The notes under the pieces: generated by a model
The model's input: only the letters and a program-made list of their open reading frames with translations
Databases searched by the model: none
Told to the model about the DNA's origin: nothing
Translations under genes and position numbers: made by a program
Shown here: positions 49,268 to 57,958 of the stretch, piece after piece
How positions within the stretch are numbered: position 1 is the first letter of the stretch
Layout: each line of letters opens with the position of its first letter
Source of the DNA: Streptacidiphilus rugosus AM-16
Lineage (GTDB): Bacteria; Actinomycetota; Actinomycetes; Streptomycetales; Streptomycetaceae
Assembly: GCF_000744655.1 (NCBI RefSeq)
Contig: NZ_JQMJ01000003.1
Coordinates: 620,001-684,000 of the forward strand
Length of the DNA: 64,000 nt
Direction: 5' to 3'

Positions 49268-50104
49268 TCACCCTTCCGAGATGAGGCCTTCGCGGAGGGT
49301 GGCGAGGGTGCGGGTCAGCAGGCGGGAGACGTGCATCTGGGAGATGCCGATCTCGTCCCCGATCTGCGACTGCGTCATGTTCCCGAAGAACCGCAGCATG
49401 ATGATCCGCCGCTCGCGCGCCGGCAGGCGCGCCAGCAGGGGCTTGAGGGACTCGCGGTACTCCACGCCCTCCATCGCCGCGTCCTCGTAGCCCAGGCGCT
49501 CCGCCAGCGGGCCGTCGCCGTCCTCCTCCGTGGGCGCGCTGTCGAGCGAGGACGCCGTGTAGGCGTTGCCGACGGCCAGGCCCTCGACGACCTCCTCCTC
49601 GGTGACGCCCAGGCACTGCGCCAGCTCCGCGACGGTCGGTGAGCGGTCCAGCCGCTGGCTCAGCTCGTCGCCGGCCTTGGTCAGCGCCAGGCGCAGCTCC
49701 TGCAGGCGGCGCGGCACCCGGACCGACCAGCTCGTGTCACGGAAGAAGCGCTTGATCTCGCCGATGATCGTCGGCATCGCGAAGGTCGGGAACTCGACAC
49801 CGCGGTCGTGGTCGAACCGGTCGATGGCCTTGATCAGGCCGATCGTGCCGACCTGGACGATGTCCTCCATCGGCTCGTTGCGGCTGCGGAAGCGCGCCGC
49901 CGCGTACCGGACCAGGGGCAGGTTCAGCTCGATCAGGGTGTTGCGCACGTAGGCGTAGTCCGGGTGCGCCGGGGTGAGCTCCGCGAAGCGGAGGAAGAGT
50001 GAGCGGGACAGAGTGCGGGTGTCGAGTCCGTCCTCTCCCGCGGAGGCCGCCCGTGGGGCGGGGAGGACCCGCTGTGCGGCGCCGGTGAACAGAGCGTCGG
50101 ACAC
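49268..50104 (-). CDS. SigB/SigF-type RNA polymerase sigma factor (first of pair)
   Basis: The 278-residue protein is a group 3 sigma: region 2 ([38 protein letters not shown] read in blocks), region 3 ([20 protein letters not shown]) and region 4 ([37 protein letters not shown]). In Streptomyces such factors serve stress responses and sporulation and are held by anti-sigma factors. None is encoded nearby. Position beside a second copy and near tadA and upp suggests the SigN/SigF locus. A SigB-type promoter (50171-50196) lies upstream. Confidence 0.9.
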   Translation of the reverse strand: MSDALFTGAAQRVLPAPRAASAGEDGLDTRTLSRSLFLRFAELTPAHPDYAYVRNTLIELNLPLVRYAAARFRSRNEPMEDIVQVGTIGLIKAIDRFDHDRGVEFPTFAMPTIIGEIKRFFRDTSWSVRVPRRLQELRLALTKAGDELSQRLDRSPTVAELAQCLGVTEEEVVEGLAVGNAYTASSLDSAPTEEDGDGPLAERLGYEDAAMEGVEYRESLKPLLARLPARERRIIMLRFFGNMTQSQIGDEIGISQMHVSRLLTRTLATLREGLISEG

Positions 50105-50170
50105 GCTACTACCCCCTTCAGCTCAGCCATCGATGAGTCGACATGGCGACGACTCCGTACCTCCACTGGG

Positions 50171-50196
50171 ATACCGGCACAGCATCCACTGCAAAC
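50171..50196 (-). promoter_or_regulatory. SigB-type promoter candidate
   Basis: On the minus strand GTTTGC (50196-50191), 14 bp, CGGTAT (50176-50171), close to the general SigB consensus GTTTAA-N12-14-GGGTAT. It lies 67 bases before the sigma gene, suggesting auto- or cross-regulation. Confidence 0.5.
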
Positions 50197-50319
50197 CCCG
50201 ACACGGCCAGATGTCACGCGACAGCAACGCGACGTCATGAGTAAAACACGAGGTCAATTAATAGGACGATTAGTGCATTTGACGGAAAGTCGACTACGCA
50301 CAGCGATGATCCCCGCGGG

Positions 50320-51273
50320 TCAGCTCTCCCAGCTGTTGCCGTTGCGCAGGCGGGCGAAGATCCGTGCGAGCAGCCGCGAGACATGCATCTGGGACATGCC
50401 GAGCTCGGTCGAGATCTGCGACTGGGTCAGGTTGCCGAAGAAGCGCAACATCACAATCTGTCGCTCCCGGTCCGGGAGTTGGACCAGCAGATGGCGCACC
50501 ATGTCGCGATGCTCCACATGGGTGAGTGCGGAGTCCTCGTAGCCCAGCCGGTCGAGCAGGGCGAGGCCGCCGTCGTGCTCCTGCTGGGCCTCCAGCGAGG
50601 TGGCGTTGTAGGCGCGGCCGGCGTCCAGACAGGCGCGGACGTCCTCCTCGGGGATGCGCAGCGAGGCGGCGATCTCCGGCACCTTGGGCTGGCGGCCGTG
50701 AGTGACCGTCAACTCCTCCATCGCGCCGCTGACCTGGACCCACAGTTCCTGGAGTCGACGCGGTACGTGCATGGTCCGGACGTTGTCGCGGAAGTAGCGC
50801 TTGATCTCGCCGAGGATCGTCGGCAGCGCGTAGGTGGGGAACTGCACGCCCCGGGTCAGGTCGAAGCGGTCGATCGCGTTGATCAGACCGATCGTGCCGA
50901 CCTGGACCACGTCCTCCATCGGCTCGCTGCGGCCGCGGAAGCGCGCGGCCGCGTAGCGCACCAGCGGGAGGTTGACCTCGATCAGCGCGGCGCGGACCCG
51001 CTCGTGCTCCGGCGAGCCCGGCGGGAGTTCGGCCAACCGCTCGAAGAGCACCCGGGTGAGCGCACGCACGTCCACCCGCGACTGCTCGATCGCCTCCGTC
51101 AGCGGTACGGACGGGGGTGCGGGCTGTGTTTCCTTCGGCGGCCCGGACTGGGCCGGGGGCCCCTGGGGTCCCTGCGGACCCGGGCCCGGTGGCTCCGCCG
51201 GAGCGGCCGGGGTGGGCAGGGACGCGGGCTCCCCCGGCGTCCTGGGCGCATCGCCCTGTGCCTGCATCGCCAC
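50320..51273 (-). CDS. SigB/SigF-type RNA polymerase sigma factor (second of pair)
   Basis: The 317-residue protein has a 50-residue Pro/Gly/Gln-rich N-terminal extension. Regions 2-4 are closely parallel to the neighbouring gene: [59 protein letters not shown]. It probably arose by duplication. A Pro-rich start and the locus suggest SigF (spore maturation), with the other gene SigN, but the assignment is by memory of gene order. An inverted repeat TTGCCAG-N8-CTGGCAA (51307-51328) lies upstream. Confidence 0.9.
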
Positions 51274-51484
51274 GCCGCCCCTCGAGTGCTCCTGCGAGCC
51301 GGGTCGTTGCCAGTCCCATATCTGGCAAAACTGGTCATAGCATCACAAGCCGGTCACGGGGCGAGCAAGCACCAGGGTTACGCGTGTTGGTGGAATCCGG
51401 GATTCCGTTACTGCGTCCGGCGGCACCTCGCGGAGGCCGGGGGGCGGCTGAGGGCAGCGGTGGACTGTGGCGGACGGTCGGGGA

Positions 51485-51778
51485 TCAGACCTCGAAGTCG
51501 GCGATGACCCAGGTGGCGAACTCGCGCCAGAGCTGCGCGGCGGCCTGGTGGTCGGGGTGGGTCAGGTAGGCCTGCAGCGCGTCGCGGTCCTCGACCAGGC
51601 TGTTGATCGCGAAGTCGTAGGCGATGTCGCGGTCGGTGATGTTCCAGCCGATCTGCCATTCGCGCAGCTCCGGCACGGTCTGGCCGACCTTCTCGAAGGC
51701 CGCGACGGCGTCGGGGACGCGTGGGTCGTCCTGCGTGACGCCGGCGTTGAGCTTGAAGAGGACCAGGTGGCGGATCAT
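51485..51778 (-). CDS. Dabb-family (stress-responsive A/B barrel) protein
   Basis: The protein has 97 residues from ATG 51776-51778, selected by AAGGAG 8 bases upstream. The Dabb pattern is IRHLVLFKLNAGVT, LREWQIGWNITDRDIAYDFA and YLTHPDHQAAAQLW. It is a small dimeric barrel. The family is stress-linked in plants and of unknown role in actinobacteria. Confidence 0.88.
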   Translation of the reverse strand: MIRHLVLFKLNAGVTQDDPRVPDAVAAFEKVGQTVPELREWQIGWNITDRDIAYDFAINSLVEDRDALQAYLTHPDHQAAAQLWREFATWVIADFEV

Positions 51779-51829
51779 CGGAGGCACTCCTTGAGGGGTT
51801 GAGTGCCCCGAGGGTACTTCACCTGCGGA

Positions 51830-51994
51830 TTACTTGATCAGGTTGGTCATGAACGTACCGAAGGCCTTCGCCGCGTGCGAGATCCCGGTGAAGCCGACCT
51901 GGACCAGGTCCGCCGCCCGCACCGGCGAGGTGATGATCGTGTAGAGCACGAAGATCACAACAGCCCAGGTGGCGATCTTCCTTGCCTGCCCCAT
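51830..51994 (-). CDS. short single-TM protein
   Basis: The protein has 54 residues from ATG 51992-51994 with GGGAGG about 9 bases upstream, which decides this start. One hydrophobic helix (IATWAVVIFVLYTIITSP) is followed by an amphipathic end (AADLVQVGFTGISHAAKAF). Function unknown. Confidence 0.7.
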   Translation of the reverse strand: MGQARKIATWAVVIFVLYTIITSPVRAADLVQVGFTGISHAAKAFGTFMTNLIK

Positions 51995-52089
51995 CTCGCC
52001 GTGCCTCCCCGCGCCCGGTCCACACCTGATGCCCATTCACTCCTACGGGCGAAGCCTAGCGCTGCCCGCCCGCAGGTCACGCCCTGCTG

Positions 52090-52386
52090 ACCTAATCAAT
52101 CCGTCAACCCGGAAGGACCAAGGTCCTGACACAAGGGGTCCAATGCGGCATGCGCGGGCCTCCGCGGCGAGGGAGAGTTGAACGTGTACCGGGCAGGTCT
52201 GGCAGGAACCGTCCGGTGCGTGGATCCGGAGCCCCCGCTGTGGGATCGGCCGGCGCGTCTCCCCCGACGTGTCGCCGATTGTGGGGCTCCGCCGGGGGAG
52301 CGGCTTCGTCCCCCAGAGCCGCTTCCCCCTCCTCGTGAGGCCCTGCTCCCGGACATGGGTGGTCAAGGTTCGGGAGCAGGGCTTTT
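52090..52386 (+). ncRNA. candidate structured leader or small RNA
   Basis: This gene-free plus-strand stretch contains competing stems: CTCCCCCG (52259-52266) can pair with CGGGGGAG (52291-52298), and the same GGGGGAGCGGCT can pair with AGCCGCTTCCCCC downstream (about 52313-52325). A strong terminator with a T-run follows. Alternative pairing ahead of a terminator is typical of attenuators or regulatory RNAs. It does not have the SRP RNA signature. The 5' end is unknown. It could be the leader of the gene at 52464 or an independent sRNA. Confidence 0.4.
52340..52386 (+). terminator. intrinsic terminator with U-tract
   Basis: A perfect 12-bp stem GCCCTGCTCCCG (52340-52351) with CGGGAGCAGGGC (52371-52382) is followed by TTTT. 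No protein gene precedes it on this strand for several kb. Confidence 0.7.
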
Positions 52387-52463
52387 CGCGTCCCCGGCGC
52401 TCCGCGCCCGTCCCCGCGGGGCCGTCCGGCGTTCGCGTGCGGGCCGTCCGGGAGAATGGACGC

Positions 52464-53294
52464 ATGCCGGACCATCTGCCCTCCACCGACGAACTGTCGC
52501 TGATCTCCGACTGCGGCTCCTGCTTCGGCCTGTGCTGCGTCGCGCTCCCCTTCGCCGCCTCGGCCGACTTCGCCGTGGACAAGCGGGCGGGAACGCCCTG
52601 CTCGCACCTCGACGCGGACTTCCGCTGCGGCATTCACACACGGCTGCGTGGCTCGGGCTACCAGGGCTGCACCGTGTTCGACTGCTTCGGAGCGGGGCAG
52701 AAGGTGTCGCAGGTGACCTTCGGCGGCGTCGACTGGCGGCGCGAGCCCGGCTCCGCGCCGGAGATGTTCCAGGCCTTCCCGGTCATGCGGCAGCTGCACG
52801 AGCTGCTCTGGTACGTCCGCGAGGCGCTGTCCCTGGCCGCGGTCGCGCCGCTCCACGAGCGGCTGCGCCGTGCGCTCGACGACGTCGACGCGATGACCCG
52901 CGGCGACGCCGCCGCGCTCGCGGCCCTGGACGTGCCGGCGGTCCGGGCGGGCGTCAACGAACTGCTGCTGGAGGCGAGCGAGCTGGCCCGCGCCGACGTT
53001 CCCGGCCGCCGACGCAACCACCGCGGCGCTGACCTGATCGGGGCCAGACTCCGCAACGCGCAACTGCGCGGCGCCAACCTGCGCGGCGCCTACCTCATCG
53101 CCGCCGACCTGCGCGGCGCGGACCTGCGCCGGGCCGACGTGATCGGTGCGGACCTGCGCGACGCCGACCTGCGCGGCGCCGACCTGACCGGCGCGCTCTT
53201 CCTCACCCAGGCCCAGCTCAACGCCGCCCGCGGCGACGCCGCCACCCGCCTGCCCGCGGCCCTCGACCGGCCGGGTCACTGGGCCGCGGACTGA
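52464..53294 (+). CDS. Cys-rich plus pentapeptide-repeat protein
   Basis: The 276-residue protein starts at ATG 52464 with GGGAGA about 9 bases before. The N-terminal 70 residues carry at least seven Cys (SDCGSCFGLCCVALPF, TPCSHL, FRCGIHTR, GCTVFDCFG), a likely metal site like YkgJ-type proteins. A helical middle is followed by pentapeptide repeats A(D/N)LRG from about residue 190 (GADLIGARLRNAQLRGANLR, ADLRGADLRRADVIGADLRD). The repeats form a right-handed helix that may mimic DNA. It is downstream of the structured leader and terminator. Confidence 0.85.
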   Translation: MPDHLPSTDELSLISDCGSCFGLCCVALPFAASADFAVDKRAGTPCSHLDADFRCGIHTRLRGSGYQGCTVFDCFGAGQKVSQVTFGGVDWRREPGSAPEMFQAFPVMRQLHELLWYVREALSLAAVAPLHERLRRALDDVDAMTRGDAAALAALDVPAVRAGVNELLLEASELARADVPGRRRNHRGADLIGARLRNAQLRGANLRGAYLIAADLRGADLRRADVIGADLRDADLRGADLTGALFLTQAQLNAARGDAATRLPAALDRPGHWAAD

Positions 53295-53319
53295 AAAATC
53301 TCGCGCGCTCCCGCCCGGC

Positions 53320-53345
53320 TGTCGAAAACAGCGGGTCCCGTTCGT
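53320..53345 (+). promoter_or_regulatory. ECF42-type promoter of the YCII-sigma operon
   Basis: TGTCGA (53320-53325), 17 bp, CGT (53343-53345). This fits the recalled ECF42 consensus (TGTCGA at -35, CGA/T-type at -10), so the sigma gene at 53760 probably activates its own operon. A hairpin (53359-53366 with 53373-53380) follows in the leader. Confidence 0.6.
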
Positions 53346-53401
53346 GTAGAGGGTGAGACCACCGGGCACCGGCCCGGTGGCACGAGCCCGAGGAGAGCGC
53401 G

Positions 53402-53755
53402 ATGAAGCAGTATCTGCTCAGCATGTACCAGCCCGAGGGCCCCGTCCCTTCGCCGGAGTTCCTGGAGCGGGTCATGGCCGATCTCGGTGTGCTGCGCCGG
53501 GAGCTGGAGTCCACCGGATCCTGGGTCTTCGGCAACGGCCTGCACGCCCCTGACACGGCGACGGTGCTCCGGCCCGGCGAGGGGGAGGTGCTGGTGACGG
53601 ACGGACCGTTCACCGAGGGCAAGGAGTACCTCGGCGGCGTCACCGTCATCAAGGCGCCGGACCTGGACGCCGCGCTGGCCTGGGGACGGCGCTACGCGCT
53701 GGCGACCGGGCTGCCGATCGAGGTGCGACCGTTCCAGGGCGAGGTCGGGGACTGA
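53402..53755 (+). CDS. YCII/DGPF-family protein, partner of ECF42
   Basis: The 117-residue protein has GAGGAGAG 4-9 bases before ATG. The signature DGPF segment ([16 protein letters not shown]) and [13 protein letters not shown] start identify the DGPF type of YciI-like proteins. These are encoded next to ECF42 sigma factors, as here with a 4-bp gap. Catalytic role unknown. Confidence 0.9.
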
Positions 53756-53759
53756 TCCC

Positions 53760-55142
53760 GTGGCGGCCACGAACGGCGACGCCGACCCGTCCGGCCGGGA
53801 CCGGTCCGACCGGACGGGTCCCGGCCGGACGGACCGGGACGACCTGGCCGGTCCTGTTGATCCGGTCGGCCCGGTCCCGGCCGGAGCGGGTGACGGGGCT
53901 GCCGTGGCCGACGCCGACATCGCCCGCGTCTTCCGCGCCGAGTACGGGCGGGCCGTCGCCGTCCTGGTCCGCCTCGTGGGTGACATCGACCTCGCCGAGG
54001 AGGCGGTCCAGGACGCGTTCGCGACGGCGGCCGAGCGCTGGCCCGCCGCCGGCCTGCCGCCGAGCCCGGCGGGGTGGATCATCACCACGGCCCGCCGTCG
54101 GGCCGTCGACCGGCAGCGCAGGGAGTCCTCCCGCGTGGACCGGCACGCCCAGGCACTGCTGATCCATAGCCCCGGCGAGGAACCGGCCGAGGAGGGCCCC
54201 GTGCACGACGACCGGCTGCGACTGATCTTCACCTGCTGCCACCCGGCCCTCGCCGAGTCCGCGCAGGTGGCGCTGACCCTGCGGCTGCTCGGCGGGCTGA
54301 CCACCGCCGAGATCGCCCGCGCGTTCCTGGTCGCCGAGCCGACGATGGCGCAGCGACTGGTCCGGGCCAAGGCCAAGATCCGGGACGCGGGCATCCCGTA
54401 CCGCGTCCCCGCCGACGCGGACCTGCCGGACCGGCTGCGACCGGTGCTGGCCGTGGTCTACCTGATCTTCAACGAGGGCTATCTGCCCTCGGGGCCCGGA
54501 CCGGATCCCGTCGAAGGCCCGGTGCGGGCGGAGCTCTGCGCCGAGGCGATCCGCCTGGCCCGGCTGCTCGCGGAGCTGATGCCGGACGAGCCCGAGGTCC
54601 TCGGCCTGCTCGCGCTGCTGCTCCTGATCCACGCCCGGCGTCCGGCCCGCACCACCGCCGACGGCGACCTGGTGCTCCTCGCCGAGCAGGACCGCACCCG
54701 CTGGGACCGTGAGCTCCTCGCGGAGGGACAGGCCCTGGTCCGCCGCTGCCTCCGGCGCGGCCGGCCGGGCCCGTACCAGATCCAGGCGGCGATCAACGCC
54801 GTCCACAGCGACGCACCCACCGCCGCCGACACGGACTGGCGGCAGATCGTCCAGCTCTACGACCAGCAGCTGGAGTTGGCCCCCAGCCCGGTCGTCGCCC
54901 TGCACCGCGCGGTCGCCCTGGCCGAGGTCGAGGGCCCGGCCAGGGCGCTGGAGACGGTCGAGCGCCTCGACCTCGACGGCTACTACCTCTGGCACGCCCT
55001 CCGCGCCGACCTGCTGCGCCGCCTCGGCCGTGACGCCGAGGCGGCGCTCGCCTACGAGACCGCCCTCGCGCTCACCCACAATCCCGCCGAGCAGGCCCAA
55101 CTCCGGTGCGGCCTGCGGTCGGTGACACGGCGGGACGGTTGA
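53760..55142 (+). CDS. ECF42 sigma factor with TPR-like C-terminal domain
   Basis: The protein has 460 residues from GTG 53760; the first 50 residues are Asp/Arg/Gly/Pro-rich and a later GTG start (near [15 protein letters not shown]) is possible. Sigma region 2 ([20 protein letters not shown]) and region 4 ([40 protein letters not shown]) are intact. A helical extension (about 230-455: [41 protein letters not shown]) is required for ECF42 activity in published work. No anti-sigma gene is present. An ECF42 promoter precedes the operon. Confidence 0.92.
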
Positions 55143-57857: not shown

Positions 57858-57871
57858 CGTCCTGCTCAGAG

Positions 57872-57958
57872 CGGTAGCGGTGGGATTCGAACCCACGGTG
57901 AAGTTGCCCCCACACACGCTTTCGAGGCGTGCTCCTTTGGCCGCTCGGACACGCTACC
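57872..57958 (-). tRNA. tRNA-Ser(CGA)
   Basis: On the minus strand: acceptor GGTAGCG with CGCTACC, anticodon loop CTCGAAA (CGA, 57922-57924), long variable arm and T arm GTGGG/CCCAC. CCA is not encoded. Confidence 0.95.

Follow-up and report, generated by a model that had tools for sequence, protein, structure and literature searches.

The intergenic stretch analysed in this work most likely carries an independent, structured small regulatory RNA, which has two C-rich loops and its own predicted promoter, and most likely is not a switch for the neighbouring gene of a Cys-rich protein (Table 1; "the window" denotes the whole 64-kb stretch of DNA that was analysed). To the full reading, i.e., a free-standing structured small RNA gene that is controlled by an activator and whose product acts in trans via its C-rich loops, we assign a probability of roughly 0.62. 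The basis obtained in this analysis comprises homology, synteny, covariation, fixed promoter spacing, and absence of the RNA from part of the family. The preliminary description of this DNA had proposed either an attenuator or a terminated small RNA; the latter proposal is supported by the homologs and their covariation, by the conservation of the promoter, and by the terminator-like hairpin, which together point to a small RNA with a predicted terminator.

Table 1. Features of the small RNA locus and its surroundings (A1, alignment of 18 sequences; A3, alignment of 40 presumed Streptomyces sequences; box centres take the start as about +12, counted from the base with which the -10 begins)
Feature	Position	Strand	Basis
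Palindrome-like promoter box 1 (AAGGACCAAGGTCCT), centred at about -64 relative to the predicted start	52113..52127	+	Ungapped profile of 66 loci
Promoter box 2 (GGcCcTTtgCC as consensus of the family), centred at about -42 relative to the predicted start	52135..52149	+	Same 66-locus profile
Predicted -10, GAGAGT in the window	52173..52178	+	Placed by alignment; missed by the pattern used
Predicted small RNA, about 200 nt	52184..52386	+	Homology and covariation for 52182-52337; 5' end placed from the -10, 3' end from the U-tract
Hairpin H1, conserved apex GGUCUGGCAGGAACC	52184..52221	+	Both sides changed in 7 of 15 pairs of helix 1
Hairpin H2, long stem with irregularities, C-rich apical loop UCCCCC at 52260-52265	52226..52291	+	Covariation (A1 helices 2-4, A3 helices 3-5)
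Hairpin H3, C-rich loop UCCCCC at 52309-52314	52294..52329	+	Covariation (A1 helices 5-6, A3 helix 6)
Hairpin H4, 12-bp stem and TTTT, terminator-like	52340..52386	+	Sequence and fold
Small hydrophobic protein gene, 68 aa, divergent, most constant neighbour	51830..52036	-	ORF; no Pfam match
Gene of a Dabb (stress-responsive A/B barrel) protein, often present as a further neighbour	51485..51787	-	Pfam
Cys-containing pentapeptide-repeat protein gene	52464..53294	+	Pfam PF00805; in 6 of 19 loci

When 61 genomes were searched with the DNA of positions 52040-52480, 27 of them had matches at E ≤ 0.001. In 19 of the 27, among them the own genome, the best match was located within the RNA part, with E values of 3.8e-6 or lower, and the other eight matched only the GC-rich stretch past the terminator, from 52388 onwards; the conserved stretch extends from about 52102 to about 52333. 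Two covariance models, R1 (built on 18 sequences) and R2 (built on 40 presumed Streptomyces sequences), recognised the RNA in 167 (E ≤ 0.01) and 185 (E ≤ 0.001) of the same 394 Streptomycetaceae genomes, respectively. Taken together, the two models found it in 195 genomes, i.e., roughly every second genome of the family that was searched is without a match. Outside the family, R1 matched none of 15 genomes of other families sampled from the order, and in a set of 296 genomes from the class it had six matches, all of them in the own family. In the hit tables, the RNA occupies one place per genome, and both the DNA search and the covariance model search revealed no second copy in the own genome. 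The exception is genome G002, in which an insertion splits the R1 match: at this locus (L010), about 28 nt forming a G/C-rich inverted repeat are inserted between H1 and H2, and both parts of the RNA are still recognisable. This locus was left out of A1.

The distribution was further examined in 24 genomes hand-picked for having no RNA match (21 of the family and three of other families), 23 of which match the small gene that neighbours the RNA. Around this gene in the 23 RNA-less loci R2 gave no significant match (the best one reached 19 bits, E 0.069), so in these loci the RNA is absent, not just diverged.

The same three hairpins, H1-H3, were obtained with compensatory changes from A1 and A3, two alignments that have no sequence in common. 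Structures were proposed by RNAalifold, with two pairs of the A1 proposal omitted, and A3 was assembled from 54 loci, 14 of which were missed by the anchor pattern. In A1, 90.5% of cells are paired, changes on both sides occur in 25 of 53 pairs (12.3 in shuffles) and covariation is 0.238, compared with 0.140 after shuffling and at most 0.097 in slid versions; in A3, the respective values are 93.8%, 21 of 56 pairs (12.4 in shuffles), 0.213, 0.124, and at most 0.063, where for both alignments the structures were counted on the sequences they came from and the shuffles ignore relatedness. The predicted transcript also folds unusually well: 52183-52388 (206 nt) reached -130 kcal/mol (z -6.08), and none of 200 shuffles was equally good.

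The possibility of a coding gene at 52178 or 52184 was rejected on gap lengths, as among the internal gap runs only 33 out of 149 and 30 out of 487 have a length divisible by three. No frame is stop-free throughout, and two of the three frames are stop-free in 17 of the 18 sequences of the 18-sequence alignment; frames are thus mostly open, as high G+C would give, and the non-coding test therefore rests on the gaps.

At the 3' side, the reported 12-bp stem (52340-52351 with 52371-52382) followed by TTTT (52383-52386) is indeed present in the sequence, and 52330-52400 folds to -42.8 kcal/mol (z -4.0), with one of 200 shuffles equally good. A simple terminator scan of 51000-54000 returned no entries under its rule of at least five T and a loop of 3-8, a rule to which the H4 hairpin does not conform. 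The sequence of the terminator hairpin is not conserved family-wide, since 21 of 83 loci (among which at least one genome is included twice) have an H4 apex of the GGUGGUCA type. At locus L161, six T follow H3 itself.

The features expected of a trans-acting sRNA, i.e., an intergenic position, a promoter of its own (predicted by conservation), and a conserved structure, were found at this locus. In the mechanism that we propose, judging from conservation, an activator bound to the two boxes near -64 and -42 would recruit RNA polymerase to a promoter with a -10 and no conserved -35. The transcript, predicted to span about 52184-52386, would fold into H1-H3 and, in the window and in some relatives, would end at the fourth, terminator-like hairpin. 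It would most likely act in trans, with H2 and H3 pairing through their C-rich loops with G-rich ribosome-binding sites and so altering translation of target mRNAs, as in published accounts of other sRNAs whose loops are C-rich. The 6C RNA of M. tuberculosis is said, in the title of a work by Mai et al. 2019, to bind mRNAs via C-rich loops. In the relevant section of PMC8388888, the C-rich loops of the mycobacterial 6C RNA are given as a known target-binding mode, and a passage of PMC3765725 draws a comparison with RNAIII for C-rich loops, leaving open its validity in GC-rich Streptomyces.

A C-run of at least five is present in the H2 loop of 16 of the 18 A1 sequences and 36 of the 40 A3 sequences, and in the H3 loop of 17 of 18 and 40 of 40, respectively (57 of 58 in total); 52 of the 58 sequences have such runs in both loops. 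At the G+C content of this RNA (74%), C-rich loops are less telling as evidence. The main rival to pairing in trans is that the RNA binds a protein (e.g., RNA polymerase or a ribosomal factor) via the apex of H1, and that the C-rich loops are structural. This apex is nearly invariant (GGCAGG is identical in 18 of 18 A1 sequences and CAGGA in 40 of 40 A3 sequences), and a precedent is known from Streptomyces coelicolor, i.e., Ms1 (scr3559), which binds RNA polymerase (PMC9130861, in part). However, Ms1 is encoded at another locus, sco3558-sco3559 (same source), no Rfam match above threshold was found for Ms1 or 6S RNA in the window, and the C-runs are kept in both loops, so that we consider protein binding rather unlikely and retain the trans-acting small RNA as the preferred reading.

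The RNA has no match to any Rfam family above threshold. With Rfam 15 at the gathering score, only three tRNAs were detected in the 64-kb window and nothing at the RNA, and the 16 homologous loci likewise gave only tRNAs; the earlier statement that the element could not be assigned to a known class therefore holds for Rfam 15. Lax Rfam searches pointed to 6C, Spy779816, sX13 and others, all of them under their own cut-offs and notable solely in that 6C and sX13 are C-rich-loop RNAs. Of these, 6C (RF01066) gave the best sub-threshold match, 25.3 bits, and both RNAs are actinobacterial with two stem-loops bearing C-runs (6C as described in part of PMC8388888), which would be consistent with a divergent paralogue. 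Nevertheless, such a paralogy is very unlikely: the score lies below the 47-bit cut-off, with an E value that varies with the size of the search (0.22-1.31), a third place in the own genome reaches 24.8 bits and this level is thus that of background, and the match spans H3 and omits most of the second hairpin of the model. Moreover, the genome contains a canonical 6C RNA elsewhere (L035:1523-1599, corresponding to G000:C3:853822-853898, at a distance of about 181 kb), which scores 56.4 bits and only 10.7 bits against R1. Unlike 6C RNA, the window RNA is longer, has the extra hairpin H1 with its own conserved apex, and occupies another locus.

Similarity in loop type was also seen to scr5583 and scr1434, conserved Streptomyces sRNAs with C-rich loops whose own expression is documented (PMC3765725, in part); they differ from the window RNA in locus, their names being those of the flanking genes SCO5583 and SCO1434, as opposed to tRNA-Ser and a tadA-like gene. 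No published name for the RNA was found in the open-licence main texts of PubMed Central that were searched, and for scr4033-4040 and SCO4036-4038 the same texts gave only a mention of tadA. No sRNA at such a locus was found in PMC2422843, PMC4681348, PMC11678152, and PMC8079986. The RNA may already figure in supplementary sRNA tables (e.g., those of PMC3765725), perhaps as scr4038.

The promoter region was analysed by means of an ungapped profile aligned on the -10, which included 66 of 71 loci (in the other five, one of which is the window, no -10 was recognised). The profile consists of the blocks GGACcAAgGnCCC and ggGGcCcTTtgCC, a variable spacer, and GCAGgAT, and it shows no conserved -35. 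The -10 of the relatives is mostly CAGGAT, CAGTAT, or CAGAGT, and box 2 of the window is a diverged example of the family consensus. The spacing was counted in 74 loci, three of which are repeats (L161-L163, identical with L009, L018, and L019, and dropped from the profile, the OsdR matrix, the H4-apex, and the loose-box counts); a strict box 1 was recognised in 49 loci and both this box and the -10 in 45, and in 44 of these 45 the distance between them is identical. A loose box 1 pattern was found in 64 of 71 RNA loci vs. one of 23 RNA-less loci, which indicates that the occurrence of the box is tied to the RNA, not to the small gene. In genome G103 (locus L218), box 1 and an apparently decayed box 2 are situated upstream of the small gene and the RNA is gone, as after a deletion.

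Of 16 genomes, 10 had a match to a tandem promoter pattern that was too strict to recover the window's own copy; nine of them had it at the RNA promoter and G001 elsewhere, and the control pattern gave one match. The match in G001, another Streptacidiphilus, is an isolated second site (L242, about 1501-1529; G001:C134:215884) with no obvious RNA or regulated gene. The pattern GGGACNWWNGTCCC occurs in one place of the own genome, which is not the window, and its reversed control is equally frequent.

The arrangement of the sites fits a promoter of the DosR/OsdR type, with one block at about -42 overlapping the -35 region and a further one at about -64, which would be bound by the activator. According to the part of PMC5360333 concerned with this regulator, DosR binds cooperatively at several sites, the proximal one overlapping the -35, and drives in this manner DrrS (MTS1338), a DosR-regulated sRNA of M. 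tuberculosis with a class II-like promoter. The window RNA resembles DrrS in having a putative activator site over the -35, although the two come from different bacterial families and the likeness is one of promoter layout. The boxes are also similar to OsdR/DevR (DosR) operators in their symmetry and GGG..CCC core (OsdR consensus AGGGCCGATCGGCCCT, from a section of PMC5069765). When the narG2 OsdR site given there is reversed and compared by hand with CGGGACGAAGGTCCCC, present in several presumed Kitasatospora copies, 3 of 16 positions differ. Compared with the published OsdR sites, matrix scores at the RNA loci are lower: with a matrix of 25 published sites, the best site coincides with box 1 in 57 of 71 loci, and the median is 7.2 (71 loci) vs. 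11.9-18.6 for the 25 source sites. In only 33 of the 71 loci is the best site equalled by no more than 5 of 100 shuffles, and the window box scores 2.9, with 34 of 100 shuffles equally good. OsdR itself is thus a weak candidate for the activator of the RNA promoter, and a regulator of the OsdR/DosR type can be taken as a lead.

A more far-reaching and doubtful idea is that this would be an undescribed Streptomycetaceae sRNA family forming the RNA arm of a DosR/OsdR-type oxygen/dormancy response, repressing many mRNAs via its two C-rich loops, and representing a counterpart of independent origin to the mycobacterial DosR-controlled sRNA. If the activator were OsdR, antibiotic producers would have a link between oxygen/dormancy signalling and post-transcriptional control. 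The trigger or target is known for few streptomycete sRNAs, a point also made in a passage of PMC8388888. Owing to the conserved structure and the unusually clear double operator, the activator, the signal, and the target mRNAs are directly testable in this case, and the many relatives without the RNA constitute natural controls.

Concerning the genomic surroundings, the small-protein gene is found in 19 of 19 loci and in 43 of 44 loci of a second set (partly the same genomes), and it is divergent from the RNA except in G015. Its constancy and the intergenic region shared with the RNA would fit a cis-acting or antisense element for this divergent gene for a small membrane protein, with the boxes serving that gene. 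We regard this explanation as highly improbable: box 1 is missing in 22 of the 23 loci that match the gene and lack the RNA, the spacing of the boxes is fixed relative to the -10 of the RNA, and the RNA persists in G015 although the gene sits beyond it, on the same strand. The arrangement in G015 (L009/L161), in which the gene lies downstream of the kept RNA, represents a local rearrangement.

Farther on the other side, tRNA-Ser(CGA) was detected in 19 of 31 loci scanned; in the window it is situated at 57871-57958 on the opposite strand, about 5.5 kb past the RNA. As this tRNA gene is convergent to the RNA in all 19 loci holding it, the RNA leads no conserved gene there. A tadA-like gene (recognised by eye) comes next in the two loci whose ORFs were examined; in S. 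coelicolor, TadA is SCO4038 (PMC4932002, in part).

The gene that follows the terminator-like hairpin in the window, previously described as that of a Cys-rich protein, begins at 52464 and encodes a Cys-containing product with pentapeptide repeats. As to the mutually exclusive stems proposed upstream of it, the G-tract GGGGGA (52294-52299) can pair with three C-tracts, located in the H2 loop (52260-52265), the H3 loop (52310-52314), and the 3' arm of H3 (52325-52329). Two alternative helices are formable in 96.5% and 97.2% of cells of the 40 presumed Streptomyces sequences, compared with 66-79% and 44-74% for slid controls. Their covariation, however, does not exceed the shuffle level (0.088 vs. 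0.086, 0.074 vs. 0.069, and 0.147 vs. 0.150), and the H2-loop alternative shows no double changes in 97 cells of the 18-sequence set. Stem switching is thus possible in the molecule and was rejected as unsupported by evolution, the changes in the alternatives being at shuffle level. The stems can form where proposed, and what failed is their conservation as alternatives, given that H3 covaries and they do not; the covariance check with homologs named in the preliminary description has accordingly favoured H1-H3, in two alignments, and not the alternative stems.

A leader of the attenuator or riboswitch type, switching such stems to control the Cys-rich gene at 52464, is hardly credible in spite of the three C-tracts competing for one G-tract, the alternatives formable in most sequences, and the 12-bp hairpin with TTTT (function predicted) ahead of the gene on the same strand, for the RNA persists where the gene is absent (it is present in only 6 of 19 loci, as counted on flanks of about 1.5 kb), elsewhere a convergent tRNA-Ser lies beyond the RNA, and covariation of the alternative helices stays at the level of shuffles. 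As we read it, the Cys-rich pentapeptide gene lies outside the RNA system.

On the other flank, to the left of the Dabb gene, two adjacent genes resembling those of SigB/SigF-type sigma factors (recognised by eye) are located at 49268-51273 on the - strand, and we take them to be probable counterparts of SCO4034-SCO4035.
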